In this document: positions 38,635-63,824 of the stretch, piece by piece
Position numbering within the stretch: the first letter of the stretch is position 1
Layout: every line of letters begins with the position of its first letter
Source: Polytrichum commune
Taxonomy: Eukaryota; Streptophyta; Polytrichopsida; Polytrichales; Polytrichaceae
Direction of reading: 5' to 3'
NCBI GenBank assembly: GCA_950295325.1
Contig: OX485803.1
Location: forward strand, 2,418,001-2,482,000
Length of the DNA: 64,000 bases
Position numbers and translations under genes: made by a program
The notes under the pieces: generated by a model
The model's input: only the letters and a program-made list of their open reading frames with translations
What the model was told of the DNA's origin: nothing
The model's database searches: none

Positions 38635-39607
38635 TGTCGCGCACCTCTCCATAAGGAGTGCCCGAAACACCATGGGCACAAGGGGGACCCCGGAGTGACA
38701 CCCGGGACTTGTGGCGCCATTGGTGAGAGGGCCCAAGTGATCCTAGTGTGGGTGAGGGCCCCGGGCGTTGGGAACGCCTCCCACCCACGGAGACTAGGAG
38801 GCACAAGGGTAAGGCCATGAGCTATGCGTAGCTCATGGCGTGGTGATTCTAGAATGCTCAAGAACACCTCAATCGGAGGTGTGAGCTAGGAGTTATGGCC
38901 ATTTGAGTGGGGCGCTGTCCCGGGACAGCGCCCTGGTACAGCAGTGCCTGGGAGTGACTCCCGGGACTGCCAAGGTTCAAAGAGGCATAACGTCCTCATA
39001 ACTTGCCCAAATGGGGCAAGTGAGGAGTCCATCGCCATCTACGTGAAACGTAGATGAAGATGGAGTGGTTGGTTGCTAGCCTCGGACATCATACAAGGAA
39101 GTTATGATGGTCTGAAGCTGCTAGAGGCTTCTTAGCCCAGCGGCTAAGGGAGAATGTCCACTTGGCCCCAACTCTTGGTGGAGAGACAAGAGGTTGGTTG
39201 ACGGTGGGGTAGGGGCCCCGTGTAAAGTCCTTGAGGCTTATATGGGTGAGGTGGTGTGGCCTCACCCACCCGAGGCCGAACGGCAAGGCCTCCATGGGCA
39301 ATGGCCCATTGTGAGGCTATAGTTGCCTAGTATGGTTCGGGTTGTTGTAGTGTTGCTCCGGCAACGCGATGATCAACATGGGATTGGACTTCCATGGATG
39401 GAAGTCCACATCTAGGAATGGGTTACCGATTAAGGGGTGAGTCCCGAAAGCAAAGTAGGAGGGTTGGTTCCCTCCTATGAACTATAAGGTCCGGGGTAGG
39501 AGGAGCTAATCATTAGCATGGCGGAATGCGAATGGTTAGCACTCGTAACCTTTGCTAGAATTGAAAATTGGCAAGATTGTCAAGGGGGGCTAGCAAGGGT
39601 TGCGACA
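38635..39607 (+). repeat. Element E 3' LTR
   Basis: 973 bp partner of 32857-33829, preceded by the purine-rich tract and followed by the CAGCG duplication. Confidence 0.95.
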
Positions 39608-39790
39608 CAGCGCCTGTCCCCATACAACCGACGACGAAATCAGAAATCCGAGAACGCCACATGCATTTACGAACGCGCGTTCGTGACCTCAGTAACTTCT
39701 CCATGTACATCCGGCGGCCTTCGAGATCCCTCAAATGAGAGCACCCTGAGGAATATCGGTTTTGTAGGTCAAAGTACCATGTTGACTTAG
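39608..39790 (+). pseudogene. Fragment of the palindrome-gene family, middle piece
   Basis: Collinear with locus 1 from about 51092 to 51290: the end of the linker exon, the intron start with a P1 palindrome at 39666-39687 in the matching place, and the stretch that in locus 1 reads WPCESPLQ. In this copy the AG acceptor before that stretch is lost and the frame is not open. Substitutions are frequent, so the fragment is older than the LTR insertions that split it. Confidence 0.75.
39666..39687. repeat. P1 palindrome, intron position of the fragment
   Basis: P1 copy with centre CG and one mismatch in the right arm. It is orthologous in position to the copy at 51150-51171 of locus 1. Confidence 0.9.
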
Positions 39791-40729
39791 TGTCGCGACC
39801 CTTGCTAGTTTTTCTCCACTTAGCTCAATCGCTTTCCAACTCTAGCAAGTGTCCCGAGCGCTAACCTGCACATCCCACGCACATGCATGGTTAGCTTTCA
39901 AAACCGCGGACCTTCAATCCCATATTTGGTCACCAAACCCTCCTACACATGCATTCGGGACTCTTTCCCCTTAGTAGGTAACCCATCGCTAAGGTGGACT
40001 TCCATCCATGGAAGTCCACTCCCTACTTGGTCATAGTGTTGCTAGGACAACACTACAACCACCCGGAGCACATTGCCAAGTATGCTCCGGGGGGGTCGGT
40101 CGGCAAAGCCGCCTCACCCATATAAGCCTCTAGGACTTTTGGCGGGGCCCCTCCCCCACCGTCAACATCCCTTTTGTCTCTCTACCAAGAGTTGGGGCCA
40201 AGTAGACATTTTCCCTTAGCCGCTGGGTCTAGAAGCCTCCCTGCAGCTTCAGACCTTCATAACTTCCACGTGCGGTCTCTGAATCTAACAACCAACCACT
40301 CTATCGTCATGTACATTTCACGTAGATCCCTATGGACACCTCACTTGCCCTATTCGGGCAAGTATTGAGGAAGTTATGCCTGTTTAAACCTTTGCAGTCC
40401 CGGGAGCCACTCCCAGGCCCCTGCTGTTCCAGGGCGCTGTCCCGGGACAGCATCCCACTCAAAGTGCCATATCTCCTAGCTCACACCTCAATTGAGGTGT
40501 TCTTTAGCATTCTAGAATCGGGACGCCATAAGCTACTCATAGCTTATGGCTTTACCCTCATGACTCCTAGTCTTTGTGGGTGGGAGGCGTTCTAAACGCC
40601 CGGGGCCCTCACCCACATTAGGATCACTTGGTCCCTCTCACGAATGGCGTCACAAGTCCCGGGTGTCACTCCGGGGTCCCCCTTGTGCCCATGGTGTTGC
40701 GGGCACTCCTCATGGAGAGGTGCGCGACA
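39791..40729 (-). mobile_element. Solo LTR F (old)
   Basis: A single 939-bp LTR of the same family, minus orientation, flanked by CTTAG (39786-39790 and 40730-40734). It differs at many sites from the LTRs of A-E and carries small gaps, so it is clearly older. A solo LTR with a duplication on both sides is the usual product of recombination between the two LTRs of one element. Confidence 0.92.
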
Positions 40730-41000
40730 CTTAGGAACCTGCGCGATATACTATCACAAGAGAACACTTGTCCATACGCACAAAATTAGCAAATCTGCAG
40801 ATGATGCCTGAATCAACTCCAACAATATTTTGAACACTGAGCACCTCCATATTGTGAATTTGATTATGTTGACTTTTGCGTACCTACCCATTTACGAACG
40901 GACGTTCGTAAATGGGTGCGACCCCGTGTTCACATCCTTCACGGACGAGCGATGAGCATATTTTTCTTGCTATTCTGTGTTCGTAAATTACTGCCATACT
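40730..41000 (+). pseudogene. Fragment of the palindrome-gene family, right piece
   Basis: Continues the match to locus 1 beyond 51286: the segment with GATTATGTTGACTTTTGCG aligns with the one near 51423, and the P1 palindrome at 40891-40912 aligns with the degenerate one at 51453. Here the palindrome is better preserved than in locus 1 and extends to 32 bases (40886-40917). Homology fades near 41000, where the satellite begins. Confidence 0.7.
40886..40917. repeat. P1 palindrome, extended copy
   Basis: Perfect inverted repeat of 15-bp arms (ACCCA plus the standard P1 arm) around the centre GA. Its counterpart in locus 1 is badly mutated. Confidence 0.9.
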
Positions 41001-41053
41001 GATGTGCATGAATGAAGATGTGTTGCTCGATGCGTAGACAATAATGACATGTA

Positions 41054-42815
41054 TTTACGAACGAACGTTCGTAAATTCCCGACCATCAGGTACCAATAGA
41101 TACGGGTCAAATAAGTATGTATGATCCTCGAAGGCATATTTACGAACGCACGTTCGTAAATGACTGTCATGGATTATGTGCATGTGACTAACTGTCGCCC
41201 ACCTCTCCATGAGGAGTGCCCGAAACACCATGGGCACAAGGGGGACCCCGGAGTGACACCCGGGACTCGTGGCGCCGTTGGTGAGAGGGCCCAAGTGATC
41301 CTAGTGTGGGTGAGGGCCCCGGGCGTTGGGAACGCCTCCCACCCACAAAGACTAGGAGGCACAAGGGTAAGGCTATGAGCTATGCGTAGCTCATGGCGTG
41401 GTGATTCTAGGAAGCTCAAGAACACCTCAATCGGAGGTGTGAGCTAGGAGTTATGGCCATTTGAGTGGGGCGCTGTCCCGGGACAGCGCCCTGGTCAAGC
41501 AGTGCCTGGGAGTGATTCCCGGGACTGCCAAGGTTCAAACAGGCATAACGTCCTCAATACTTTCTTGAATGGGGCAAGTGAGGAGTCCATCGGCATCTAC
41601 GTGAAGCGTAGATGAGGATGGAGTGGTTGGTTGTTGAAATCAGACATCATACAAGGAAGTTATGATGGTCTGAAGCTGCTGGGGGCTTCTAGGCCCAGCG
41701 GCCAAGGGAAAATGTCTACTTGGCCCCAACTCTTGGTGGAGAGACAAGAGGTTGGTTGACGGTGGGGTAGGGGCCCCGCGTGAAGTCCTAGAGGCTTATA
41801 TGGGTGAGGTGGTGTGGCCTCACCCACCCAAGGCCGAACGGCAAGGCCTCCATGGGCATTGGCCCATTGTGAGGCCATAGTTGCCTAGTATGGTTCGGGT
41901 TGTTGTAGTGTTGCTCCGGCAATGCGATGATCAACATGGGATTGGACTTCCATGGATGGAAGTCCACATCTAGGAATGGGTTACCGATTAAGGGGTGAGT
42001 CCCGAAAGCAAAGTAGGAGGGTTGGTTCCCTCCTATGAGCTATATGGTCCGGGATAGGAGGAGCTAACCATTAGCATGGCGGAATGCGAATGGTTAGCGC
42101 TCGTAACCTTTGCTAGAATTGAAAATTGGCAAGATTGTCAAGGGGGGCTAGCAAGGGTTGCGACACTAACCATATGAGTACCTCAATCCAGAACATGCTC
42201 TCATGTGGGATTTACGAACGCACGTTCGTAAATTACCGACCATCAGGTACCAATAGACAAGGGTCAAATATGTATGTATGAACCTCGAAGGCATATTTAC
42301 GAACGCACGTTCGTAAATAAATGCCATGGATGATGTGCATGTGATTATCCATGAGTAGCTCAATCCAAAACATGATCTCCTGTGGGATTTACGAACGCAC
42401 GTTCGTAAAATTACCGACCATCAGGTACCAATAGATACGGGTCAAATATGTATGTATGATCCTCGAAGGCATATTTACGAACTCACGTTCGTAAATAATT
42501 GCCATGGATTATGTGCATGTGACTATCCATGAGTAGCTCAATCCAAAACATGCTCTCAGGTGGGATTTACGAACGCACGTTCGTAAATTACCGACCATCA
42601 GGTACCAATAGATAAGGGTCAAATATGTCTGCATGGTCCTCGAAGGCATATTTACGAACGCACGTTCGTAAATCACTGAGATGGATTACGTGCATGTGAC
42701 TATCCATATGAGTAGCTCAATCCAGAACATGCTCTCATGTGGAATTTACGAACGCGCGTTCGTAAATCCTTGCCATGTCCAGGTCCGAATCGTTTGTCTA
42801 AACCTAAAGCTCCTC
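41054..42815. repeat. P1-containing satellite of about 180 bp, split by solo LTR G
   Basis: A unit of about 180 bp is repeated roughly four times (part at 41054-41192, the rest at 42166-42815). Each unit holds two P1 palindromes, one after CATGTGGGA and one after TCGAAGGCATA. Copies start at 41054, 41139, 42211, 42296, 42388, 42474, 42566, 42651, 42745 and 42819. Eight of these ten fit the arm pattern with no mismatch; 42474 has one. Solo LTR G interrupts the array. No coding potential is seen. Confidence 0.9.
41193..42165 (+). mobile_element. Solo LTR G
   Basis: A single 973-bp LTR, plus orientation, flanked by CTAAC (41188-41192 and 42166-42170). It inserted into the P1 satellite. It resembles the LTRs of E more than those of A-D. 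Confidence 0.94.
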
Positions 42816-42840
42816 ATCTTTACGAACGTGCGTTCGTAAA

Positions 42841-43130
42841 GTTCCGGTATTTACGGCGGTATATGCGGTAGGTGCAGCCTGTACTGTACCTGGGTGGTGT
42901 AGGGTTGGCGCACACGAAATGGCTTGAGCGCGTTCGGTGAGGTCTGTAGAGCGCACACTTGCATGTGCCGCTGAAAAGAGCTTTGTTGTGGGGGGAAGAG
43001 CTTTAAGTACTTCACCCCGCTGGTTCAAAATCCCTTGGATGCTCTTTAAAAAGCGGATTCCCGCCGCCTTCTTTGGCCTAACAATCTCCCATTCCATCCA
43101 TGCGGAATTATATAAATAGCATTGTCATGT
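42841..43130 (+). other. Unassigned stretch with a short ORF and TATA-like motif
   Basis: Between the satellite and the AT-rich region. A 60-codon frame (42937-43119) is open but shows no recognisable domain. A good TATA-box match (TATATAAATAG) lies at 43109-43119 with no gene right after it. I would not call a gene here. Confidence 0.3.
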
Positions 43131-44417: not shown

Positions 44418-44488
44418 TGTAGGGTTTAGGGTTTGCGGTTAGGATTTAGGGTAAGGGTTTGGGGGTAGGGTTTAGGGGTTTAGGGTTT
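44418..44488 (+). repeat. Degenerate telomere-like repeats
   Basis: Several TTTAGGG units with spacer changes. Together with 606-632 this supports a plant-type telomere motif. Confidence 0.75.
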
Positions 44489-45079
44489 GTGAAAGTTGTG
44501 TATGTGGTATTTGGGTTTAGGTTTTAGATTGTTACTAGGATACATTACACACACAAACAATATTGACTCCTCAAAAACCCTTGTAATTGCACTAACTTCA
44601 TTCATCGCAAGGTCGTAGTTGATGCTAGCAAAATAGTTGACCACTCCAGAAATGCATTAGTTCAAGCTAACACCTAATATTAGAACTTGAATTGACATCC
44701 TATCGTATAGCAACTCTGCGCAATCTCATATTATTATGAATTCTTTTTTGCATGTAATATTTATTTGAGGAACCATCGAATTAATTGAAAGATATCTAGC
44801 TCTTACATAAACTATATTTTAAAACACCATATACATATCTTTGCGGGTGGATTCTACATTGACAACCTAGGAAATGACATGCATTGTTTATTACGAATTA
44901 ACTGAGCATATTTTCCTAAAATATGTTTACAAGGAATCCAAATGTAGAGGTACTAAGGAAATAAAACGAGTAAAATTCATGTATTTGAACTAAGCTTTTC
45001 AAGTTAATGCCTTAAACGCGTCCATTACATATAAATATGTCAAAGCATGAGAATAACATGAAGGGTTCCAATATACAAC

Positions 45080-46108: not shown

Positions 46109-46144
46109 ATATATGTACGGACAGGGGATCCCAAAACCATCACA

Positions 46145-46777
46145 TATACGAACGCTCGTTCGTAAATGGACATACACTGCATACCCACCTCCATTTACGA
46201 ACGCTCGTTCGTAAATGGACATACACTGCATACCGAACCTCCATTTACGAACGTGCGTTCGTAAATACGCACTCCACGTTCTTTGAAATGATCTATATTT
46301 ACGAACGCACGTTCGTAAATATACGCAAAATATCACTCAGAAGGAACCTTAACTTTAATATGAACCTCTATGAATATCTAAAGAACAAATATAATTTTGC
46401 GAACACCAATAAGACAAATCACATGTACTTACGAAAGATAAATCAACCAAATATCCGAAAAGATAGACCAAATGGACATACATTACGAACGCACGTTCGT
46501 AAATGAATCCAAATCTATAAAACCTATATCTTTTACGAACGATCGTTCGTAAAAATAACCAAATATATTACAAACACATTCATGACGAGTAGTCTCTTTG
46601 ATCTTCATATCTTTTACGAACGCTCGTTCGTAAACTCAATACTAAAAATTTATATGATCTTGCAACCCCTCATTTACGAGCGAACGTTCGTAAATATAAT
46701 TACATCAATTGCAAAGACGCATTAACACTGCGTAGTCTGTGGGATATGCATGTCACTTACGAACGTTCGTTCGTAAA
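46145..46777. repeat. Cluster of nine P1 palindromes in the locus 1 leader intron
   Basis: Copies start at 46145, 46194, 46244, 46298, 46482, 46532, 46613, 46673 and 46756. The pattern is arm TTTACGAACG, two free bases, reverse-complement arm; the centres seen are CT, CT, TG, CA, CA, AT, CT, AA and TT. Several extend beyond the standard arm (CC pairs with GG at 46194; T pairs with A at 46532). Between copies the sequence is unrelated AT-rich DNA except for one repeated stretch (GGACATACACTGCATACC) linking the first three. Confidence 0.95.
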
Positions 46778-46805
46778 GTCACTAATTGTTTATATTCTGT
46801 TGCAG

Positions 46806-49800
46806 ATGGCAAGATCAAGCAGAAGCGCCATTGAGATGTTCGCGGTGAAGGTCGATGGCCTCCCAGAGTCGGTGTTAGACGATAACGGCAACGACAACTA
46901 TGTCCCCAAGGAAGACTTCATGGGGGAGTGGACGGCACTGCCAGAGAAGATCGGGGACGGCCTCTTCTGCATGCGCTTCACCTACGAGCTGGAGACAAGA
47001 CCGGACCAGCCCGAACAGTGGGTTCAAATGAAGACGTGGGAGATAGAGTCCATAGAGGCCCAGGGGGAGTATGTAATTCTGGACATGAAGAACAAGAAGG
47101 ATCATATCAACCTCTTGTTGCATTTTCAGAAAAATACCTTCTCCTACCAATACGCCACCAATAACGTAGCGGAAGATGCCAAGCACTTCGACCTGGACGG
47201 CCTCTTCTCCAAATATGCGTTGAGCCCATACTGGACTGCAAGGAAATTGACCGCCCTTGCATTGAACATCTCCAAATACAACAGTGTGGTCACTGAGGCA
47301 AACAAGAAGAAGAAGAGCCCCAGGAAACCATCCACATCAGGGGCAGGAGGATCTAGAAGTGCACCCAGGCCTGTGCCTTCCGCTAGCAGGGCGACGGAGG
47401 GCCCCAGTAGACACTCCACGCCATCGAAGAGGACAAGGGAGGAGATGGAGAAATCGGGAGTAACGGAGACCGCAGAGGTGACCTCGCCTGTCGTAATGCC
47501 CACCCCCTTGAAAAAGGGTGAGAACCCTGACGCTGTGAAGGCCACGAGGATCCTTCGAGACTTCAACAACTACTCGAAGGATTGCTGGCCCATGGGACGC
47601 CACTTCACATTCAACGTGGACTGCTTCAAGTGCGAGATATCCCCCAACAAATGGGTGGTTCGCTCTCGCGAAAGCGGTGGTGTGAAGTGGCAGATAAATA
47701 ATCTAATGAACAACGTCAAGTGGGACAGGCAGACCGTCTGCGTCATGCCGAAGGGGCTGACATCCCGTCCGACGGAGAAGGACTGGCCACGGATCCATAA
47801 TGGAGAGTTCTGGATCATAGACGGCCAACACAGCTTGGAGGCGTCCCAGATAATTCTCAAGGACGACAACTTCCAGCATGAGCTGAAGGAGGACTTGCGC
47901 TACTGGAAGGCGTTCTTGGTGTGGTCGGACGATTGGGACAAGCTGCGGAAGATATCCACCTTCCTCAACTCCGGCAACAAAATCAAGGCCTTCGAGGCGT
48001 CGTGGGCAGCCAACATAGTGGCTGCAAGGGACGTCTGGGTCGCCCACGGGTGCCCCCCTAAAGAAAGGGAGAACGCGAAGACGCCGTCTCCACAATGGAA
48101 GGTGAGTTTACGAACGAACGTTCGTAAATATCTTTGACATTCAAATTTTCAAGTTCTTTGACATTCAAATTTACGAACGTGCGTTCGTATTTTGTGCATT
48201 ACTGATGCCTTTCTTGCTGCAGGCATTCTGCGACGCGATGGTGGACAAGTTCTCCTCCATCGACATGAAGTCTACAACAACCAAGTCTGTCCTGGAGCTC
48301 AAGGGTGAGCTCCGCCTCATCTGTTGCAACAGGGACACTTGGGAGTTGTGGACACAATTTTTTGATGCGCACAGCTCGGGCGATCTGGTCAACCCCGACA
48401 CCGAGGAGAAATACAGCGCTGAGAAGACCGGGGAGGCCCCTCCACTACTGAGGGAGTTCTTCAGGTCCCTTCAAGGGTTAACAGAGTCCGAGTTGCAGAG
48501 GTGCGCGGTGCATCTTCTTGGGAACACAGTGGGAAGAACCATCCCATACCCGAAGATATTTTTGAAGAGGCCAAGACACAAGCCCGGCACGTATTCCATC
48601 AAGGAATGGTGCGAACACCGCAAGCTGAAGACTGCTGCAATGAGGGAGTTGAACGCCCTAATACCAGAGTACGCACTCATCCTAGCCGACGGGGACATTA
48701 ATTGGGCCAGCTGGAAGATGTTCAAGGTCGACTACAACATCTCCGGACCCTCAATGCGTTGTCTTGTCAAGGAGCACGCCTCCATTTTGAAGCAAAAGGG
48801 GAACAAGAGGACAAAGAAAACCGAGACGGATCCCCAGGAGGTGGAGCAATACAGAAGTTTTTTGGCGCGGAAGAGGTTGGCCACATTCGAAGGAGTGGCC
48901 AGATTTTGTCTGGTGACAAAAGGAGTGGAGAGGGTGACATTTTCCAAGTGGGACCGGACCATGAGCAGGGCCGAGGTGAGGGAGGATCGACGGGGGTGCC
49001 CATTTGCCCTGATCGATTTCAGGGGGATCCCCGGTGCGTCGAGGCAGGGGGGGAAGGACATACCTTTCTACGACCCCTTCATGGCCAAGTTCAAGGAGCA
49101 CAAGTCTCCGGACATGATTGAGCCTCACGTTTGGCTGTGGATAGTGGAGCAGGAAAAGCTCTCTGCTGTAGTCGACCTGTACGAGAAGAGGATCAAATTC
49201 GAGTACATCATCTTCCACAGCACTTACGTGCCCGCCAAGACGGAAGGGATCGTGGCCATCAACGAGGCCAGGGGAAACAAACAGGTGGGGGCGGTCAGCC
49301 TCGTCTTCTTGACGTACAACGCGCTTCGGAATGGGCGAGCCCCTGTCAAGGCGAACACTACGTTCAAGAAGATCTACAGCATCCCCCATCCCCCTCCCAA
49401 GGATCTGCTGCAGGAGACCTTGTACACTGTCTTCCCGGCGATGGAACTCAGGTTGGAGTTCTACGTCTCCGTTTTGCAGAGCGTGGCAATAAGCGGAGAG
49501 ACCGTGTACAACGTTTGTGGCGGCAGCAAGTTCATGTACGCTGCGATGGTAAGCTCTCCAACTAATATTTACGAACGCTCGTTCGTAAAGTTCACCTCAA
49601 CTTGTCTTGGGTTTGATAACATTGTTTCTCGTCGTTGATGTTTACGAACGCACGTTCGTATATTCTAACGTATTTGCTTGAATCTCAGATTCTGGGGCTG
49701 GTCGTCAACAGCTTCATTGAAGCCATCGACGAGGAGGACTTCCACGTGCACAGGGCGAAGGCCTCCACGATGGACCTGGAGGACATGTCCCTCCCGAGGA

Positions 49801-52508
49801 CGGACATCAACATGCCCGTCGACGAAGGCATGCCCGCCATGGAGACGGACGACGACGAGCCCGCGCCCTCCTACAACGTCGAGGCGATCCTCCGATCCTT
49901 GGACGTCACTCCTCTCCGCATTTTGGCGCCGTCGGGAAATCCATCCGACGTGCAAGGGACTCCGGGTGGATACACGGGGTCGTCGGCGGGGACAACCCAA
50001 GATGTCCTCCCCGCGAGAACGTCTGGAGCGGAGGCATTCGGCACTCCCGGGGGATGCTCGACATCCGTGTCGCCCAGGCCGATCGTGGTTCCCAAGATGG
50101 AGAACCTCGACCTTCTGGACCAACGGTCCCGACCGACGTTGGACCAGTACCGCAACACGAGGCGGAGGATGAAGAAGACCCCCTACGTGGAGCTGCCTCC
50201 GGGGGCAATCATCGAGGTCTTCGATGAGGACGAGGGCGACATGGAGATCATGGTCGAGCTGGGGGTAGACTTTGACAAAAACAAGAGGGTCAAAGAGGAG
50301 GCGTTGTCCGTCGCCGAGCTTAACGCCAAGCTTGAGCAAAAGATGAAGGAGGACATGGCGAAGGCGGCAGAGGAGAATGCCAAGAAAATGTTCGAAATTC
50401 AGGAGGAGCTGAGGCAGTCCAACGAGAAGACGGACGCCATCCTTGCCATGCTCCAGCGTATGCAGAGCTTCTCGGCGCCCCCCCTGCCGGCCTACCCCTT
50501 CCCTGGAGGATACCCCTCCCAATCCCCTCCACCGGGCATGTTCACCGGAGGGCCTTTCCGCCAGCAGGCGCCCCACCCTACGCCTGTTGGCACTCCTCCG
50601 CCACCAGAGGTTCCCTCGACCACCTCCCACGATGCTGTGGCGGCGGCCATCCAGGAGGACGAGGATTTACGAACGCGCGTTCGTGAATCTTCAGGTCCTC
50701 CAATCCTCACCCCTCCCCCTTCAAGGGTAGGACTGCCCTCATACACCGATGCATCGTCTTTCACCGTCGTCCCCAGGGTAGTAGACAGACATGGCGATGA
50801 CTCTGCGCGACACACTGACATGGTCATTGTAGAGGACACGCAGGGGAGCCCCAATGACGCACCAGGGGTGCATGGGATGGACGTGGAAGAAACCCATGCG
50901 GCGTGGATGGAGGATGTCAGGATGGACGCGCTCGACCTGGGCGCTGAGGAAGAAGACGCGCTGCGCATCCAGGCGACACAGGCCTCTCAACCGGAGCGTG
51001 AGGCAGAGGCCATGGAGATAGAGGCGGCTGCAGCTGTGGAGGTTACGAACGCGCGTTCGTTAATCATTGAGGAGGGACCTGCTGCTCGGTCCAGCGCCGC
51101 TACCCCTCCCCCCGATGACGAGGTAACTCTCCTCTGAGAATACCATTTTTTTACGAACGCGCGTTCGTAACCTCTCTAACATCGCGATGTTTTTCTCTTC
51201 ATCGACATCCAGTGGCCTTGCGAGAGCCCTCTTCAGCGGTCCCCCTTAGGGCCGAACAGTTTTGTAGGACACGGCATCATTTTGCCTTAGGAAAATGTGA
51301 TAGACTATCACGTGAGAAATGTAAATATTCAACGGATTAATATATGAGCCTATGTTATCTGCATCGCGTTGCTTCAAATTCTCTGCCCTCGACCCCTTCT
51401 CGTATGTTGTATATGTTGATGAGATTATGTTCATTCTTGCATACCCACCTCATTCGTGAACGCTCGTTCGTGAAAGGCTGCGACCCACTGTCCACCTCAT
51501 TCGCGAACGACCGCTCGTAAATGTACGTGTAGCCGCGCTCACGAACAAGCGCTCGTAAATGATGCGCACCGCCCCCGCAACCTTCATTCACGAACGCTCG
51601 TTCGCAAGTGTGCCCTTGAGCACATTTTCCTTGCACTCTCCTCACTTCCTCGTCTTTCCCCATAATGCACCGTCTTCATTTTCTACGCAAAATTTCATTA
51701 TTGGATCATAGAATTAAACTAGTCGAGTTGTTCATCACAGGACCCCCTGGAGATTGGTCGCAACCCCTCTACCAGTGGACCTCCCACCCGGAACAAACCT
51801 TTCATCGTTTTTGACCTCAACGGGGTGTTGTGTCACACCCAACACATCCCAAGGGTCCCCACGCGTCCCTTCCGTCACCCCGACGAAAGGGACTACGACG
51901 GCGAGCTCGACACCCTCATTAACCGCAAGGCTGTCCGCGCCCGTCCCGGCTTGCGTGACTTCCTTCGCGAGGTGGTCGAGTTTGCTCACGTCATTGTGTG
52001 GAGCTCCATGGTCATGGAGAACACCGAGCCCATCGTGCACTTCTTGTTCCGCGATCTCCCGAGCCCTTGCCTCGTCCTCGGCCAAGAGGACTGCGACGAG
52101 CTGCTCGACGAGAAAGGTCAACCGGTGCCCAAGTTTGGCGGTCGGGGCGGAGGACAACAATTCCTCAAGGTCCTCCGCTCGAGACTCTGGCGAGGCGTCC
52201 CCCGTCTGCAAGGGACGCCGCACGGGTGGTGGCCGACTCCAGAGAACACCGTCCTCATCGACGACAGCCCCACCAAGAGCGTCTTGAACCCCCCGGGCAA
52301 CGTCATCTTCCCGGACACTTGGACCGGCGATAGGCAAGACACATTTTTGGTCGATAGGCTAGCCCCCTACCTTAGAAGGCTCGTGCTCCACGCCGGTAGC
52401 ATCCCATTTTTTGTTAGGTCCAACCCCATCGGCAATGCGGCACTAAGCCCCCGCGATAATGTATTCAAGAGCATCATGAGGCTCGCCAAACTCAATAAAT
52501 TGATTTGA
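46806..52508 (+). CDS. Locus 1: DGQHS-motif protein fused to an FCP1-like phosphatase domain
   Basis: Four exons, all junctions phase 0: 46806-48101, 48223-49548, 49689-51122 and 51741-52508, giving about 1,607 residues. The start is the ATG directly after the leader-intron acceptor. Layout: an N-terminal domain (1-165, shared with locus 2), a basic patch (about 165-175), a Ser/Thr/Pro linker, then WIIDGQHS (DGQHS at 339-343), which resembles the DGQHR signature of ParB/Srx-type proteins; that link is weak. Exon 2 is well conserved but unrecognised. Exon 3 encodes an acidic linker with a coiled coil (about 1070-1135) and a Pro-rich tract. The last exon has HAD motifs DLNGVL (D1377), VWSS and IDDS (D1526), as in FCP1/NIF C-terminal-domain phosphatases. 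The fusion is inferred from phase and from the lack of an in-frame ATG before DLNGVL; a transcript would settle it. Confidence 0.7.
48107..48191. repeat. Two P1 palindromes in coding intron 1 of locus 1
   Basis: Copies at 48107-48128 (centre AA, 5 bases after the donor GT) and 48170-48191 (centre TG, damaged right end). The intron (48102-48222) is only 121 bp, so the palindromes make up over a third of it. Confidence 0.95.
49568..49662. repeat. Two P1 palindromes in coding intron 2 of locus 1
   Basis: Copies at 49568-49589 (centre CT) and 49641-49662 (centre CA) in the 140-bp intron 49549-49688. Confidence 0.95.
50666..50687. repeat. P1 palindrome inside coding exon 3 of locus 1
   Basis: A P1 copy with centre CG is read through as part of the linker (EDLRTRVRES). 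The frame stays open across it. One right-arm base differs from the intronic consensus (GTGAA for GTAAA), and that base removes a stop codon only in another frame, so no selection can be read from it. Confidence 0.92.
51042..51063. repeat. Second P1 palindrome inside coding exon 3 of locus 1
   Basis: Copy with centre CG, read as VTNARSLI in a different frame from the copy at 50666. Both lie in the weakly constrained linker before the phosphatase domain. Confidence 0.9.
51150..51171. repeat. P1 palindrome in the last intron of locus 1
   Basis: Copy with centre CG, 28 bases after the donor GT. The same intron position is occupied by P1 in the fragment (39666) and by P2 in locus 2 (61533). Confidence 0.92.
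51213..51290 (+). CDS. Possible alternative last exon of locus 1
   Basis: After an acceptor at 51211-51212 (CATCCAG), 25 codons read WPCESPLQ onward to a TAG at 51288-51290, in phase with the end of exon 3. Using this exon would give a protein without the phosphatase domain. Its sequence is recognisable in the older fragment (39608-39790), but there the acceptor is gone. It may be a real alternative end or ordinary intron. Confidence 0.35.
   Translation, partial: WPCESPLQRSPLGPNSFVGHGIILP
51453..51612. repeat. Four degenerate P1 palindromes in the last intron of locus 1
   Basis: Four P1-like segments near 51453, 51490, 51537 and 51588 keep the ACGAACG/CGTTCGT theme but have several arm mismatches each. 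They are the most decayed copies in the locus. Confidence 0.7.
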
Positions 52509-52619: not shown

Positions 52620-53617
52620 TCTGCCCCCATATGCGACGCCCCTGTGGTCGACGGCCCTTCCCGTCCCCTCTCGCCCCCTGCCTCCCCTTCCCGCGACGTC
52701 ACGGACTTCCAAATGCCATCCCTCTACCAGTTCTTGGTGGTGGACGCGGCCTCGGCTGTGGATTACTCCCGCGACATCGGCATCGACGACGGCGTCGTCA
52801 ACAGCCCGCCCCCCGCACTTGTCGCCCGCGCCTACGCCCCGTCGCCCTCCCCCCTCTCCAAGGAGAAACGGACGCTCGTTCGTTTGGGACACCTCTCGCC
52901 CTCGAGGGATGACGCCGTCGCTCGTCGCGGGCCGAGCCGCCGTCTCTGCATGGAAGGCCCCCGTTGCCACACCTCCCCCGCCGACTCCGTTCCTCCCCCC
53001 GCAACGTCCTCCGCGATCGTGGGCCCTCCACGCCTCGACTCACCCCCGCCATCCAACATTGCAATAGTTCCATCGGCTCCGGATGCTCCCGTCGACGCCC
53101 CCCTCGTTCCCACCGTTCCCCGCATGGACGTCCCCAAAGCCAAGGTGCCCTCCTCAACCCTGAACCCCTTTCTCGCTTTTGCTTTCCTTGTCTTCTGTTT
53201 GCGTGCCGTTCTCTTTACGAGCGCCCATCCCAAACCGCCCTCATTATTTTCCCCACTCCATTCCTATTCTTATCTTCCTATGACGTTGTTTCGCAGGTGG
53301 TTACCCGCTCGCTTGGTGCCCGGCCCTCCTCCACGTCCTCCTTGGATAGGCACGCCCTCAAGGCCGCATCTTCCGAGTCCGATCGTTGTCTGGCCCTCCG
53401 GAGAAGCGCAAGACGTTCCCTTTCGCAAACACCCTCGCAGTCTACTTATAATACCACCTCTTACAATTCGGGAGCGCGTCCTGAAACATGCAAGAACGAC
53501 ACATATTCATGCCCAGGCAACACACAAGGATACAGTCGTGGGCCTGAGATTTTTAGAGCCATGGAGGCCGCCAAAAAAAAGGACTTAGCCGCAAAAAAAA
53601 ATAGTGGGTCGGACTAG
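52620..53617 (+). CDS. Candidate two-exon Pro/Ala-rich coding unit after locus 1
   Basis: Past the phosphatase stop codon, a possible acceptor (GCCCATAG) precedes an open, GC-rich exon at 52620-53140 (SAPICDAPVVDGP onward). A donor after GCCAAG and an acceptor at 53296-53297 (TTTCGCAG) would join it in phase 0 to a second exon that ends with a Lys-rich tail (KKKDLAAKKNSGSD) at 53617. No ATG opens the first exon convincingly. The protein is low in complexity and matches no family I know. It could be a further alternative C-terminus of locus 1, or a separate or decayed gene. Degenerate P1-like pieces at about 52865 and 53213 tie it to this locus. Confidence 0.35.
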
Positions 53618-55712: not shown

Positions 55713-55800
55713 AGTTTGGGTCGACCGACCCAAACTATGCAGCTGGTTTGGGTCGCTCGACCCAAACTCTGCAGTTGGCTTGGGTCGCTCGACCCAAACT
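55713..55800. repeat. Three P2 palindromes in the locus 2 leader intron
   Basis: Copies at 55713-55736 (centre AC), 55745-55768 (CT) and 55777-55800 (CT) in a tight array of 32-bp spacing with GCAG between them. The P2 arm is AGTTTGGGTCG, then two free bases and the reverse complement. Confidence 0.95.
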
Positions 55801-56056
55801 CTGCAACCTACAAATCCAATATCCCAAAATAAACATCCTTCCCACCATCAACAAGAAATTATATTCAAATGGCTATAATTTGAAATCGTCTGATATTTGT
55901 TGGCATGTCCACACACGTCCAGCGCGGCTCTAGAAGGTCACCAAAAATTGCTCTCCTGTTGGATAATTTGACCACTACACAATATTCAATATATTCATAT
56001 TCTTAAGACCCGAACTCTACCAATAATTCTTATACGATTAGGCTATTCGAGGCTTG

Positions 56057-56165
56057 GGTTTGGGTCGGTCGACCCAAACCTATTCATGATGGCCAGTAGA
56101 GCACCTTTCAATTCGCACTAATGTTCAATCCAAGTTGAAAAACTTTGGGTCGATCGACCTAAACT
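56057..56165. repeat. Two more P2 palindromes before the locus 2 start codon
   Basis: Copies at 56057-56080 (centre GT) and 56142-56165 (centre AT, two arm changes). The last ends 25 bases before the ATG at 56191; the last P1 in locus 1 likewise ends 28 bases before its ATG. Confidence 0.95.
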
Positions 56166-56829
56166 AACAATTTTGTTTCTGGACTTACAGATGGCCACTA
56201 AAAAGAGACCTGGAGAGAGGTGGTTCATGCTCGCCCCAGACCACCTTTGGGAGGAATACGAAACTCCACAGGACGACTCATACGTCCCAAAGGATGGGAT
56301 CGTTCTTGCGTGGTCCGTTCAGGTTGTGAAAGCCTCCCAGTACAAGCTCTTGTTCGTGGTGAAAGTGGGGACCCACGAGCAACACACCTGGGCAACGCTG
56401 ACGGGATGGGAGGTTGCTTCCGTCCAAGCTCTCGGGGAGCACGTTGACGTTATTCTAGAGAACTCCGCAGTGCAAAACGTGCATATGTTCATGCACCAAT
56501 TCTCCGAGGCTTTCGACCCCCTATACGCCAAGGAGACGTGCGTTGACCCGGAGACCATAAAACCGGAGACCACCTTCATAGATGGCACTGTATCGAACAC
56601 CAAGGTCGCTAGCAGGTTCACAAAACTGAAACAAGCGATCACGGTTTTGAATAAAGCGTTGCAAAGCAAACCAAAAACGCAACAACCTGTCAGGCGGAAG
56701 GACAAGATAGAAGAAGGAGCATGTTCCTCCAGACCCCAATCTGTGAGGATTCCGCTGGCGGTTCCGGCAGATTCTAAAAGAACGAGCACTACCTCGACTC
56801 CGGCTGACAGCGAAACGCCATCTCCTTCA

Positions 56830-56877
56830 GGAAGTCGGCAGACGACCCCGTCCGGAAGCCGGCAGACGACCCCGTCG
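56830..56877 (+). repeat. Doubled 24-bp coding unit in locus 2
   Basis: Two head-to-tail copies around GGAAGTCGGCAGACGACCCC, encoding SGSRQTTP twice in the Ser/Thr/Pro linker. Confidence 0.85.
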
Positions 56878-56893
56878 AAAAAGGCAAGAGAGT

Positions 56894-59859
56894 TGTGGTA
56901 CTTTTGGGCCACCCCCTTTCGAGGGAGCCTAAAAGTATCACACAAGCCCTTCGGTGAAGGTGGCCTGCATTTGCAGGCGCCCAAGCCGAACCCGGATGAT
57001 AGGTGTATAACGTGAGTAGTTAGATTTTTAAGGGAGATTAAATATGCGTCGTAGTACCTCCGGAGGTTGGGCCTTAGTTTTTTACTAGTGTGGCTTTAAA
57101 CTCCACTAACCAATTTCATATCTAGTTCTAACCTTAACCTACAACCTATTCTACGCGCAAACGCACCAGCCTTGAAACCAAGGCAATCCTAATTTGTGAA
57201 TTGGGATGGTTCTAATACACCCAACCGGGTGTGACTCATACCACCCTAATTCAACGAACGGAATAACGACAATTTGATGGACCATTCAATTCTTCCTATT
57301 TCTTTATTTAGTTCTATTTAGTTTTCTAAGCGGGGGAACTTGGCCTAAGTCCCACCCTTCACACAAATTCCTTCTTAATTACTTACTTTTGTTTGCACGT
57401 CCTAACTCACTACATTAACATATTAGGCATCACCCCTTACCTGGTTGGTGCACCCCTTACCTCGGAACCTTCTAAGGCCTCGTGCAGGTCCTTTGAAGGT
57501 CGAGTAACATCTCAAACCCTTCGGATATCAATGGTTCGAAGGGTGGTGTCACTCTACCGAGTTAAGTTTCCGATTCGGGTCTCTTGCCAACAAGGGTTTA
57601 CGATTTATTTTGTATGTTTTGATTGTTAAATGTGTTTACACTGGATAGACCACGAAATGCAACTCAATGGGACCAGGGTGACGGGCAACCTGTAGGTTCA
57701 ACCTGTTGCGCAATCTTCATAAATTGGGGCCATTACTCCCAATCTATGAGGCCAACAACATAATAGTGGATTCGCGGGTCATTAACCCCACCTTTCCACC
57801 AACAACATTCAGAGTGGTCGTGTCGATGATTAATCCGACTTACCACACATGAAACTTGCTAATAAATGAAGCTACTACCACAAAACATACCAAGGGCCCC
57901 GAAAACAATGGAGTTGGGTATTCCCTTGGCGGTCAAGTGGTCAAGCCACTTGACCTTACGAGATAGGTGAGTGGGTTTATAGATGCGTACCTTAGCCGCG
58001 CTCCCTCCAACCCTAAATGGAAGGCTAGCGTTAATAAATTTACCTCAATTCTCCTCGGTTGATTTGGGCTCGATGTAGGCCGAGCCGCTATCTCCTTCCT
58101 TGCTCCACTTCCCTAGCGTCGACCTTGCCTCCTTCTTTGTAACTAGTTTGGTAGTAAGCGTACTTTAGTTAACAATTAAAATATCAAGTATTTATTCTGC
58201 GCTGTAATTTAATCCTAAGAATAATATTTATACTTAGTGCACCTAATTATCTTTCCAATGATCTAAAAATCACTTGAATCGGATAAGAAATGCAAAAGTT
58301 ATGAGGGTTGGAAGTGTGAGGTCGATTCAACCGACCCTTCCAACCCACCTATCTAACTTCTAACTTCAAAAATTCATAGCACCTTCCTTACTACTTGGAT
58401 CTAGGCTTTCCTTATACTATTGGAAAGCTATGAACAAGCTCTAACTAGAAAAATTATGACATTAGCAGGTTAAGCTAATAGAAATTCAGCGGACTCCTTG
58501 TAACACAGCAGTCAATCAAGAAGGCTTAAACTATGTATCTCACCTTCAACAATTCATATCTAATTCAAATCTTATTCAAATCAAACGTTCTATATGACCT
58601 TGGAGAGATATTAAAAAGATGTATTTGATAAAAATATGTGATTAGAAAGGTAAGCCGAAGTGAATCCAGCAGGTCCTCTGTAATGCAGCAGTCAACCAAA
58701 AGTTCTCAAACTATGTGTCCCATCTTGCACAATTCATATCTGATTCATATCATGCTCAAATCAAATGTTCTAAGCCATTTTGGAAAGCTACACAAAAATT
58801 CTACTTGGGAAAAATATAAATTCTTGGAATTAAAATTCCTATTGGGCTCGCAGGTCTGATTCAGCAGCCGCTACCCACAAGACCACCCAGTTTTTCTACT
58901 CCATCTTTGAAAATTCATAACTAATTGTCATCTTAACCAAATCACAAATGGGAAACGGCTATGGATAGCTATAGGAAATCTCTCTAAGAGAAAAATGATA
59001 AGTATCTTTTTCTAGCTTCTGAACTAAGCCTTCAGGGCATTGGCAGATGAGGTCTATAATGCCTTCACTCAAAATTCTACCATTCAACCTACCTCTACAA
59101 AAGAAGGAATCATTTTGTTGGTGTGTTAATAAACACACATTCTAACTAGGAGAGAGAATAGAGGAGGTTGTCAAGCCTTTCTTTTAGGCCATTGAGAATG
59201 CATACTAAAGGATTTTTTCCTAACTACATTGAAGCAGGGCTTCGCCCAAGCATTAGAGGACGAGAGAGAGCTACAAGGTGGAAGGAGGGGTTTTTAAACC
59301 CTCTCACAAAAGGGTTGGACCCCTCCTCCACCGGATCCATTTTTCAAACCCTTTCCCAAAATTTTGGCTCGGGGGTTTTCCCGGTTGAGGTTGCCACCCT
59401 CTCGCCGAGGTGGCTCCGACGGGGAACCTAGAAATCTTTCTAATTTTTCGCCATCGAGTTGGCAAGGGGGCAAGTGGGCAAGTAGCCCCCTTGCTCTCTT
59501 TCTTTTTTGTCTTCAAAAGTCTTCAAGCCGATTTTATCTTCTTAGGTAAAACACCTCCAATAGTCTTGTGTGCCTCACACTAACTAATAAACTAACACTT
59601 GCTTAGCTAGCATTTACTAACATTTGCTTAATAGCTAGCATCTACTAACATATGCTTAATAGCTAGCATCTACTAATATTTGCTTAGCTAGTTGTTTTTA
59701 CTAGCTAGTACATTTTTTCTACTTTGCTACCTTCTAGCACTACTTAGTTTCATTTTGACCTTCCTTCTTCTAGGCTAAATGCTAAATGAACTAATTTTCC
59801 CTAAATTCCCTATCAATTCTGACTTTTAATGCTAACATTCTAACTAAAAGTGATCCCGC
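56894..59859. mobile_element. Unclassified 2,966-bp insertion in locus 2
   Basis: It separates two parts of locus 2 that are adjacent in locus 1 and is flanked by AGAGT (56889-56893 and 59860-59864). It starts TGTGGTACTTTT; the reverse complement of its right end (GCGGGATCACTTTT) is only loosely similar. No coding frame or known domain is seen. Internal features are degenerate repeats around 58480-58810 and short GCTAGCAT-type repeats at 59600-59700. It could be a non-autonomous LTR-type or DNA transposon; neither is proven. Confidence 0.55.
58480..58810 (+). repeat. Degenerate tandem pair inside the insertion
   Basis: Two diverged units of about 170 bp sharing GCAGCAGTCAA, AACTATGT and CAATTCATATCT in the same order; a third, weaker unit may follow. 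Confidence 0.6.
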
Positions 59860-60547
59860 AGAGTGGTGGACCACTCAAAGGGTTCACAAGAGTCATCAGT
59901 CATGACCACCGAGCCAGTTTCGCCAGAGTTGGGGATGCCCAAGCCTGGCCAAGAGGTTGATGCTGGGGAAATTCAAAAAATCAACGACAATTTTGAGACC
60001 AAATGCCTCCATTGCTTCTTCGTGGGCAGGGACTTCAAGTTCGAGGTGAACATTGCACAATGCCACCTTGCGCCACCTGAAAAGTGTGTCCGAGCCAAGG
60101 AGGATGCCTATGTCGACTGGATGGTCGCTCAAATCTTGGGAGGGCAGTTCAAGGACGACCGATAGACAATTGTCGTGATGCCCCAGGGGCTAAAAAAAAT
60201 GCCTACGGCTGATATGTGGCCGGCGATTTCTAAAGGAGTTTTCTGGCTGATTGACGGCCAGCACAGTGTAGAGGCCTCCAAAAAAATCCATCTGATGACT
60301 GAATGAGACGACTCCAACAACCAGAAGGAGAAGCTGAAGGTATGAAAGGCACTGGTGATTTGGTCGGACAACGAGACCGTCCTCAGTGACATCTCCAGGT
60401 TTTTCAACATGGGGAATATAAAGAGGGCGTATTAGGCATCCTAGATTAGGAATATAATGGCCTCGAGGGATGTGTGGGAGTTCTATGGCAGGCCTCCCAA
60501 AGAAAGGGAGAATGCAAAAGACAAGAACCCAAAATGAGAGGTGAATA

Positions 60548-60729
60548 AGTTTGGGTCGATCGACCCAAACTCTTGTATTGTTTTATTTTCTTCGCAAGTT
60601 TTGTAGTTTGGGTCGATCGACCCAAACCCTTGGATTCATCAGATTTAAAGTTTGGGTCGATCGACCCAAACTATTGGCATGTCTTATAGTCTTCATCAGA
60701 TTTAAAGTTTGGATCGATCGACCCAAACT
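60548..60729. repeat. Four P2 palindromes in coding intron 1 of locus 2
   Basis: Copies at 60548-60571, 60605-60628, 60649-60672 and 60706-60729, all with centre AT and all but the last perfect or nearly so. The matching intron of locus 1 (48102-48222) carries P1 copies instead. Confidence 0.95.
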
Positions 60730-61159
60730 GCTGTTCCATTTTTTTCATGATGTGTTCTCTAACATATGTTCTTGACTTCATGTTCAGGACTTCAAATACC
60801 AGATGATCAATAAATTCTCCTCTATTGACAACGCGAGCCACAAGCAAAAAAAATATAACGAGCTAAGAGGAGAAATCTACTTGATCACAGCGTCCGACTC
60901 CGTGTGGACAAAATGGAAGACTGTCTTCGAAAAACACGAGACGGGGGACCTCATCGATCCCGACACCGGCATTCTGTACAACCAGACTGCGCGCTTCAAG
61001 CAAATGAAGCCACTGGTGAGGGAGTTCTTCAGAGCTCTTCAAGGTCTCTCGGAGACAGAGGTGGGAAAGGCGGCGTCCCACATCCTCCACGTGGAGCCGA
61101 CGGCGAAGAGATGCTGGGTTCACCCGAAGATCGTCTTCACGAAGCGGGACGACCCCCAC

Positions 61160-61253
61160 ATGTTTGGGTCGGCCGACCCAAACAGTGCCGACGTTGCAGC
61201 TTCCCAGAGCGACGCTCGCCAAGCAGCAGGGTTTGGGTCGGCCGACCCAAACC
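61160..61253. repeat. Two P2 palindromes inside a coding exon of locus 2
   Basis: Copies at 61160-61183 and 61230-61253, both centre GC and perfect over 24 bp. Each is 24 bp, so eight codons, and is read in the same frame as FGSADPN. They fall in the linker before the phosphatase domain, as the exonic P1 copies do in locus 1. Confidence 0.95.
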
Positions 61254-61532
61254 CCGTCCCCGATCAGACCCCGGTGGACGAGCCCATGTTAGATGTTGAA
61301 GGCCCGCAAGGGCCTGGTGATACCTCTACTCCTAACCCAGTCGATGAACCAATGCATGATGCGCATGCGGAGGTTGGGTTGGGACAAAGGCCTGACAGTC
61401 AGCCTTTGCATGAGCAGGTTGAGGCTGAAGTCGTCTTCGGAGGCGGCGGTGACAGAGTGGGGCAGCGCACGCGGTGACGGCATCCACGTCGTCAAGGCGC
61501 GACCAAGGCGAGGTAATGCACTGACCCCACTC

Positions 61533-61556
61533 AGTTTGGGTCGGTCGACCCAAACT
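61533..61556. repeat. P2 palindrome in the last intron of locus 2
   Basis: Perfect copy, centre GT, 21 bases after the donor at 61513. This is the counterpart of the P1 copy 28 bases after the donor in locus 1. Confidence 0.95.
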
Positions 61557-62028: not shown

Positions 62029-62841
62029 GGCTCGGAGCATAGCGTAGCGGCTCCCCGACGCTCTTCTCCAAGGAGCGGAGAGGGCAGCGCGGCGGCGCCC
62101 CCGATTTTACCCGTCCCGCCCCCGCGGCCGAAGAAACGATTCCTGGTGTTAGACCTGAACGGGGTCCTCGTCCAATGCATTCATTGCCCTAGGACCCCCA
62201 CGGTGCCCTTTTGCAAGCCCGAGGACGCGAATTACGACGGGCCGCCCACGTTCATAAAGAGCAAGCTAGTTCACCTCCGCCCGTGGCTTCAGACCTTCCT
62301 CCAGATGGCCCAACAACGATGGTGGGTGGTCGTGTGGAGCTCCATGACGGCCGAGAACACCAATGCTGTCGTGGAGTTCATCTTCAAGGGCATCGAGCCC
62401 CCCTGCATGGTTCTAGCACAGGAAGCCTGTAGAATATTGTACACACCGGACGGCAAAGTCGTCAAAAAACCAAACAACCCCGCTTCCCCCCAATACCTCA
62501 GGGTCTTGAAACCCATTTTTTGGGACCAACGTCCGTCATTGATAGGCGTCCCCTACGACGTCCGCCCCACCCGCGAGAACACGCTCATGGTGGACGACAG
62601 CGCCGCAAAGAACATGTTGAACCCGACGGCCAACCTCATAGTTTGCCCTACGTGGACGGTCGAGAAGGTCCGGGACCGATTTTTGTTGGACCTTGGTAAA
62701 TACCTCCAGGCGCTCTGCGGAAGCGGACTGCCCGTAAACAATTTTGTTAGGAACAATCCGATAGGCGAGAGATACTTGGATCCACGAGACCATTTGTACA
62801 GAGAGTTGTTATCTCACGCGAAATTTAACAAGCTCATTTGA
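62029..62841 (+). CDS. FCP1-like phosphatase exon of locus 2
   Basis: An open exon of 270 codons plus stop, beginning in phase 0 after ATCCGCAG. Motifs: FLVLDLNGVLV, VVVWSSM, LMVDDSAAK and a C-terminal NNPIGERYLDP, matching the last exon of locus 1 along its length. In FCP1/NIF phosphatases the first motif is DxDx(T/V); here, as in locus 1, the second Asp is Asn (DLN), which should weaken or abolish phosphatase chemistry. Plant relatives with DLNG are known to me only from memory. No in-frame ATG precedes the motif, so the exon needs upstream splicing. Its clean frame contrasts with the decayed middle of the locus. Confidence 0.7.
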   Translation, partial: GSEHSVAAPRRSSPRSGEGSAAAPPILPVPPPRPKKRFLVLDLNGVLVQCIHCPRTPTVPFCKPEDANYDGPPTFIKSKLVHLRPWLQTFLQMAQQRWWVVVWSSMTAENTNAVVEFIFKGIEPPCMVLAQEACRILYTPDGKVVKKPNNPASPQYLRVLKPIFWDQRPSLIGVPYDVRPTRENTLMVDDSAAKNMLNPTANLIVCPTWTVEKVRDRFLLDLGKYLQALCGSGLPVNNFVRNNPIGERYLDPRDHLYRELLSHAKFNKLI

Positions 62842-62850
62842 GACACTACG

Positions 62851-63824
62851 TGTCGCAACCCTTGCTAACCCCCCTTGACAATCTTGCCAATTTTCAATTC
62901 TTGCAAAGGTTACGAGCGCTAACCATTCGCATTCCGCCATGCTTATGGTTAGCTCCTCCTACCCCGGACCATATAGCTCATAGGAGGGAACCAACCCTCC
63001 TACTTTGCTTTCGGGACTCACCCCTTAATCGGTAACCCATTCCTAAATGTGGACTTCCATTCATGGTAGTCCAATCCCATGTTGATCATCGCGTTGCCAA
63101 AGCAACACTACAACAACCCGAACCATACTAGGCAACTATGGCCTCACATTGGGCCAATACCCATGGAGGCCGTGCCGTTCGGCCTCGGGTGGGTGAGGCC
63201 ACACCACCTCACCCATATAAGCCTCTAGGACTCTACGCGGGGCCCCTACCCCACCGTCAACCAACCTCTTGTCTCTCCACCAAGAGTTGGGGCCAAGTGG
63301 ACATTTTCCTTTAGTTGCTGGGCCTAGAACCCCCCTAGCAGCTTCAGACCATCATAACTTCCTTGTATGATGTTTGATCATAACAACCAACCACTTTATC
63401 TTCATCTACGCTTTATGTAGATGCCGATGGACTCCTCACTTGCCCCATTCGGGCAAGTATTGAGGAAGTTATGCCTGTTTGAACCTTGGCAGTCCCGGGA
63501 ATCACTCCCAGGCACTGCTGTACCAAGGCGCTGTCCCGGGACAGCGCCCCACTCAAATGGCCATAACTCCTAGCTCACACCTCCGCTTGAGGTGATCTTG
63601 AGCATTCTAGAATCACCATGCCATGAGCTACGCATAGCTCATGGCCTTACCCTCATGCCTCCTAGTCTCCGTGGGTGGGAGGCGTTCCCAACGCCCGGGG
63701 CCCTCACCTACACTAGGATCACTTGGGCCCTCTCACCAACGGCGCCACAAGTCCCGGGTGTCACTCCGGGGTCCCCCTTGTGCCCATGGTGTTTCGGGCA
63801 CTCCTCATGGAGAGGTGCGCGACA
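62851..63824 (-). mobile_element. Solo LTR H
   Basis: A single 974-bp LTR of the family, minus orientation, flanked by CTACG (62846-62850 and 63825-63829). It begins nine bases after the stop codon of locus 2 and so replaces its native 3' untranslated region. It is moderately diverged from the LTRs of A-E. Confidence 0.94.

Follow-up and report, generated by a model that had tools for sequence, protein, structure and literature searches.

Clade-specific palindromes repeated through a dispersed gene family of Polytrichum commune

Introduction

ParB, Noc and KorB, which have the ParB-CTPase fold, bind DNA, and in canonical ParB a helix-turn-helix domain reads the parS site. The DGQHR protein DndB is counted as ParB-like in the section of the survey available (PMC12704722), and its homodimer is described, in the part of the study cited here, as binding TACG-N10-CGTA palindromes in the promoter that controls its own gene (PMC4507180). 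According to the same portion of the survey, fusions of a ParB fold with a methyltransferase are frequent in phages, enriched in prophages and also present in archaea (PMC12704722). The accessible text on the VANC proteins of Arabidopsis states that they bind motifs that recur in introns and in upstream DNA throughout the transposon family encoding them, that motif and protein change together, with different targets in related members, and that the VANC21 motif YAGTATTAY lies in one orientation and mainly in non-coding DNA (PMC5735166).

Here we describe a gene family of Polytrichum commune whose loci carry many copies of a short palindrome with the core CG-NN-CG. The window, that is, the whole stretch of DNA analysed, comprises 64,000 nucleotides (assembly GCA_950295325.1, contig OX485803.1, positions 2,418,001 to 2,482,000, forward strand) and contains two loci of the family, with palindromes of type P1 at locus 1 and P2 at locus 2. 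Positions are those of the window, and palindromes are located without strand.

Results

Locus 1 encodes a predicted protein of 1,607 residues. Exon 1 (46806..48101, +) comprises an N-terminal domain, a Ser/Lys linker and a ParB-CTPase-like fold, which the structure model places at residues ~267-393 with the motif IIDGQHSLEA. Exon 2 (48223..49548, +) has a predicted beta-class amino-methyltransferase fold with the degenerate motif DFRxxP in its second half, and is followed by a linker exon (49689..51122, +) and, in frame, by an NIF/FCP-SCP-like phosphatase exon with the motif DLNGVL (51741..52508, +; PF03031). The protein is thus predicted to combine folds of the ParB-CTPase and degenerate amino-methyltransferase kinds with an NIF-phosphatase exon; the fold matches of the exon 1 and exon 2 models are predictions with moderate Z, and PF03031 was matched with 60 bits (locus 1) and 54.3 bits at a gathering cutoff of 21.8. 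In the motif DxDx(T/V), which we take to be the signature of the NIF/FCP-SCP exon, the second Asp is Asn in both loci. The arginine of the ParB P motif GxxR is replaced by Ser (GQHS type) in 26 and by Thr in one of the 27 members that have this position (four of 31 are gapped there), which makes a ParB-like NTP switch doubtful. For neither model, that of exon 1 or that of exon 2, do the listed matches include a helix-turn-helix domain. Beta-class amino-methyltransferases have the catalytic motif (D/N/S)PP(Y/F/W), which is absent from the methyltransferase-fold part; D-F-R-x-x-P stands at the corresponding strand end in 37 of 37 sequences. TIGR03187 (DndB/DGQHR) matched one of 31 members, below its cut-off (E 0.5), the motif being DGQHS and not DGQHR. 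A Pfam search of exons 1 and 2 gave no family at its cut-off, and a limited search found neither a transposase nor terminal repeats.

Locus 2 is a damaged gene copy. The first half of its exon 1, with the N-terminal domain and linker (56191..56893, +), is open and 61-65% identical to the clade C relatives P0030/P0031. The exon is split by an insertion of ~3 kb (56894..59888, no strand assigned) with TG...CA ends and the 5-bp target duplication AGAGT on each side, in which no long terminal repeats were found. The second half, the ParB-fold part with ...IDGQHSVEAS... (59889..60540, +), contains all six in-frame stops (60163-60537); the other three exon pieces were tested and have none. In the alignment with P0030, five of the six stops face Gln (two) or Trp (three), matching the expectation for C-to-T or G-to-A changes. 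Only the first ~121 residues of exon 2 remain (60782..61144, +; 80-84% identity to P0077/P0079), and an NIF/FCP-SCP-like phosphatase exon (62140..62841, +; PF03031) lies farther downstream.

Other elements were observed in the window. A repeat of ~975 bp, with internal palindromes such as GGGCGCTGTCCCGGGACAGCGCCC, is present at 41193-42166, 38633-39608 and 62850-63824 and in further copies; two copies are ~94-95% identical to the third, and one splits the P1 array. Degenerate TTTAGGG-like repeats of the plant telomere type were seen by eye at 44420-44500, and inspection of the open reading frame list suggested several Ty3-type integrase-like frames in 1-40000 and one long transposase-like frame on the minus strand (1072-2694).

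A scan of the window recovered 12 P2 sites at locus 2, four of them exact and eight with 1-2 mismatches, and none in the dinucleotide-shuffled window. They are distributed as the first-pass annotation had described: five in the leader intron, three of these at a spacing of 32 bp (55713, 55745 and 55777; 55713..55800) and two 5' of the ATG at 56191 (56057 and 56142; 56057..56165), four in coding intron 1 (60548, 60605, 60649 and 60706; 60548..60729), two in the linker exon with the in-frame reading FGSADPN (61161..61253) and one in the last intron (61533..61556). The linker-exon pair is 69 bp apart, a distance shared by three other loci of clade C. When as many as 6 mismatches are tolerated, P2 is confined to 55713-61556 except for a single 6-mismatch match at 950, and no upstream P2 array for locus 2 lies within the window. 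Across the 24 half-sites, a single base accounts for 96-100% at each of positions -1 to -10 and for 62% at position -11, the three columns flanking the arms are near random (33-46%), and the spacer is free, with five different dinucleotides among the 12 sites.

At the same tolerance of 6 mismatches, P1 has 32 sites in the window, all of them within 39665-42841 or 46144-51609. Twelve sites lie upstream of locus 1 (39665..42841), in part as a tandem repeat whose 178-bp unit contains two palindromes. Nine are in the leader intron (46144..46778), two in intron 1 (48106..48192), the first overlapping the 5' splice site region, two in intron 2 (49567..49663), two in frame in the linker exon (LRTRVRES at 50665, VTNARS at 51041), and one good and four degenerate copies in the last intron (51149..51609). 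Ten bases of the half-site are 88-100% conserved, lowest at the outer positions and with the four degenerate copies counted in; conservation fades at base 11 and is near random further out, and the spacer is again free (10 dinucleotides among the window sites). A P1-like palindrome, AAACGGACG-CT-CGTTCGTTT, was also seen at 52866-52885 in an open frame 3' of the locus 1 stop, and its arm pair recurs reversed in L045.

At up to 6 mismatches there is no P1 in the P2 locus and no P2 in the P1 locus of the window. The arms had been called unrelated outside CG-NN-CG, which is too strong, as they agree at 6 of 11 positions. The geometry TACG-N10-CGTA is found in 25 of the 32 P1 sites of the window, which has 26 such motifs in all, and in the core of a third type, P3, which differs from P1 by a single base per arm, the A at -4 of P1 being G in P3; P2 does not have the geometry.

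Such palindromes could act in RNA, as pre-mRNA hairpins or by pairing between copies, and control the splicing of their own transcript. Four intron stretches that bear them do fold better than shuffled sequence (z -2.8 to -10), and the first site of intron 1 lies on or directly next to the 5' splice site. We nevertheless consider this unlikely. All copies share one arm, which base pairing alone would not demand; the 44 sites of the window have 31 deviating pairs at their ten inner positions, of which one is compensated, eight are wobble pairs and 22 are mismatched; sites also stand in arrays kilobases 5' of the leader; and the closing CG...CG is nearly fixed, even though a loop of two bases is, to our knowledge, impossible in RNA.

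Three protein searches yielded 113 relatives, nearly all of them single-exon predictions. Many of these run on into the next intron, so that intron DNA becomes visible through three reading frames, in which P1 reads FTNxRS, LRTxVRK or YERxFV, with x encodable by GNN, NNC or NCG. Leaving x free gave 106 diagnostic matches, 105 of which have a spacer residue compatible with the palindrome, and shuffles of all 113 proteins gave a mean of at most 0.76 matches per pattern. Because NNC permits many residues (15 of 20 for RTxVR, the commonest pattern), the residue test discriminates well only with GNN and NCG, where 61 of 62 matches have a permitted residue. Among the 106 matches, 39 are in proteins from the linker search and mostly represent coding sequence, which is under protein constraint as well; in the linker exon of relatives the arm residues are kept and the spacer codon varies. 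Of the 58 intron tails (a recognisable exon end plus at least 6 residues beyond it), 41 admit a CG-NN-CG palindrome with a minimum arm length of 9, compared with 2.9% of 1,160 shuffled tails; of the other 17, eight have a mismatched or shorter-armed motif and nine have none. The palindrome is present in 20 of 24 intron-1 and 24 of 40 intron-2 tails at offsets that are near-constant within a clade; in clade A, 12 tails have a first intron-1 site, and in 11 of these it lies 2-3 residues beyond the exon. One clade B entry, P0065 (863 aa), contains exons 1 and 2 without the intron; it may represent a transcript, a retrocopy or a prediction that was spliced.

The tails of clade B read FTDxRP or YGRxSV, corresponding to arm TTTACGGACG (P3), or RPxGRK, corresponding to TTTACGGCCG (P3b). 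The type was scored in the 82 exon-1 and exon-2 relatives, leaving out the 31 from the linker search as well as LRTxVR matches, by which P1 and P3 are indistinguishable. P1 was found in 21 of 45 clade A proteins and P3 in none, P3 or P3b in 13 of 33 clade B proteins and P1 in none, and P2 in two of four clade C proteins with no other type (A versus B, Fisher 1e-9; clades were assigned by identity class, and in exon 2 identity classes substitute for clades). In the exon-1 tree, B and C each form one side of a supported branch, and neither includes a P1 row. Divergence between clades is greatest in the N-terminal domain (A-C identity 0.20, compared with 0.41 in the ParB-fold part). The arm type is therefore private to a clade of many copies and not to a single locus. 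The suggestion of one private arm for each locus holds in that each locus has a single type, which is, however, shared clade-wide.

These results imply a recogniser for each arm type but do not name its encoder, and the reader might be a regulator of the host, such as a silencing factor diversified against the individual clades. We regard this as quite unlikely, as it would require three separate host readers and three clades of a single family to have diversified in parallel.

Exact cores were counted in 407.8 Mb of the genome: P2 occurs 9,231 times, P1 2,909 times and P3, which was first derived from the intron tails of relatives and then counted, 1,147 times, whereas reversed controls gave 0; the chance expectation at equal base use is ~0.0004 per exact core. 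The individual loci all come from the first 2.6 Mb of a single contig, where they were picked by their palindromes, and the scans of loci required the CG-NN-CG core, so that other cores would escape. Four clade C loci have 40, 23, 31 and 12 sites, all 106 of them P2. Locus 1 with its array has 28 P1 sites and one that is P1-like, and the 24, 22 and 16 sites of three more loci of clade A are all P1; the four clade A loci together have 90 P1 sites and the one P1-like site, with neither P2 nor P3. A further cluster with 37 P1 sites contains only an NIF fragment. For exon 1 of clade B, a first look gave 1,048 candidates, of which 95 matches were scored; these lie on the seven contigs C1 to C7. On C1 up to 37.11 Mb, all six of the exon-1 matches listed have P3 nearby when compared by eye with the first 100 P3 sites, five within 0.2 kb and the sixth ~6 kb upstream, where that list ends; a P3 cluster at 25.98 Mb has no exon-1 match among the 95 scored of the 1,048 candidates.

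Seven loci (three of clade C and four of clade A) share one plan, in which an array is followed after 3.2-4.5 kb by the leader sites and the ATG, and then by exon 1, intron 1 with 2-4 sites, exon 2 and intron 2 with 2-3 sites where fetched; clade C adds two linker-exon sites 69 bp apart and one last-intron site. The P1 block upstream of locus 1 fits the plan of the other loci, and locus 2 has the sites of the plan except those of intron 2, which is missing along with most of exon 2, and those of an array, of which the window shows none. The array period differs by locus (178 bp with two sites at locus 1; ~78, 64 and 56-65 bp in clade C), and array sites are not independent, because they are partly tandem duplicates. 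When intron 1 of the four clade C loci is aligned, the palindromes are largely intact islands amid diverged sequence, the exceptions being one broken centre in C2 and the lack of the fourth site in C2 and C3. Stop-free matches in the exons seen were found at L036/L037 (clade C) and, as far as fetched, L051 (clade A); the remaining fetched copies have stops or breaks. The gene family is dispersed and possibly mobile.

Five P2 clusters (L033, L034, L035, L042 and L044), often with a spacing of 32 bp or 79 bp, have no family gene within the 10 kb examined, and may be remnants or targets without a gene. The 50 kb chosen around gene-less P2 clusters contain 38 sites, and L044 and the first 39 kb of the window combined contain 10.

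The palindromes might themselves be tiny mobile elements, similar to MITEs or, among known parallels, to the palindromic elements of Rickettsia, which colonised the genes by a CG-NN-CG insertion rule. Their presence in introns and, in frame, in exons would fit this, as would thousands of copies and clusters without a detected gene. Yet three arbitrary 10-kb stretches contain no palindrome, the rule of one type per clade has zero exceptions in 82 relatives, and independent colonisation by related elements, one of the two origins first proposed, is disfavoured because offsets in the same introns are near-constant across relatives (positions also agree across the four clade C loci) and the flanking columns are near random. 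We judge this origin very unlikely. The replacement of whole sets of arms at equivalent positions, in turn, was upheld in the fetched genome stretches and in the relatives. Loci mixing P1 and P2, or relatives lacking palindromes in the same introns, had been named as evidence to the contrary; neither was encountered in the loci and relatives examined.

Discussion

The palindromes are probably read by a sequence-specific factor that binds as a dimer, and the most likely one is the protein of the family itself, with operators that differ by clade in a dispersed family. A two-fold site with fixed half-sites and a free spacer is what a homodimer on DNA requires, and a single arm per clade throughout the gene, exons included, points to a single reader that selects all sites. 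Since this reader must split with the clade, the simplest candidate is the product of the gene. The privacy of arms to clades could by itself be explained by inheritance, and the argument for self-recognition therefore needs the conservation data as well. Counting against it are the P2 clusters in which no gene was detected, the missing array of locus 2 within the window, the 17 intron tails that do not pass the arm criterion, the replacement of the GxxR arginine and the departure of P2 from TACG-N10-CGTA. The matched recogniser that had been proposed for each locus remains the best reading, although its unit would be the clade with its many copies rather than the locus.

Each clade would keep one 22-bp operator, composed of 10-bp half-sites around a free 2-bp spacer with a CG-NN-CG centre and repeated ~12 to 40 times per fetched locus in the upstream array, the introns and the linker exon. 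The protein would dimerise on this operator, load onto the copies of its own clade and control their chromatin or transcription, either by autorepression, as in DndB, or by protection from silencing, as with VANC in VANDAL transposons, which binds its motif and removes DNA methylation; private arms would prevent cross-control between clades.

Tentatively, the family may also represent an undescribed class of eukaryotic mobile genes derived from a phage-type ParB-methyltransferase fusion and persisting by recognition of themselves, in which the proteins of each clade load onto the parS-like palindromes of their own copies and upstream arrays and form mutually blind, orthogonal systems with hundreds of copies in one nuclear genome. 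If the self-recognition proposed here is right, one family in one genome would provide at least three natural orthogonal protein-operator pairs, each with a thousand sites or more, even in exons, and a VANC-like self-targeting selfish gene would have been made of bacterial partition and methylation parts. The co-change of a protein with its repeated operators would become testable, as would the way in which multi-copy genes escape or set silencing.

Among the systems compared, ParB/parS, Noc and KorB share with this family the predicted ParB-CTPase fold and palindromes clustered at the gene, but the family has lost the GxxR arginine and has extra domains, and helix-turn-helix was not among its listed matches. 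The phage, prophage and archaeal fusions, as far as the available survey text describes them, likewise have both of the folds predicted here in one polypeptide; in Polytrichum commune the gene is eukaryotic and intron-bearing, its methyltransferase catalytic motif is degenerate, and an N-terminal domain and an NIF phosphatase exon are added. DndB, in the part of its description cited, resembles the family in the DGQH motif and in the TACG-N10-CGTA geometry that the cores of the putative P1 and P3 operators share, but is bacterial and acts at two promoter regions only, whereas the motif here is DGQHS and P2 does not match. The VANC proteins of VANDAL transposons differ in that the folds predicted here are ParB-like and methyltransferase-like and no transposase was seen in a limited search; going by the accessible VANC text, the sites here are, unlike those of VANC21, two-fold symmetric and also present in coding exons. 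With VANC/VANDAL, as described there, the family has in common that it is dispersed and carries arrays of its own motif upstream and in introns, that the putative targets differ between related members, and that these arrays evolve as tandem repeats.
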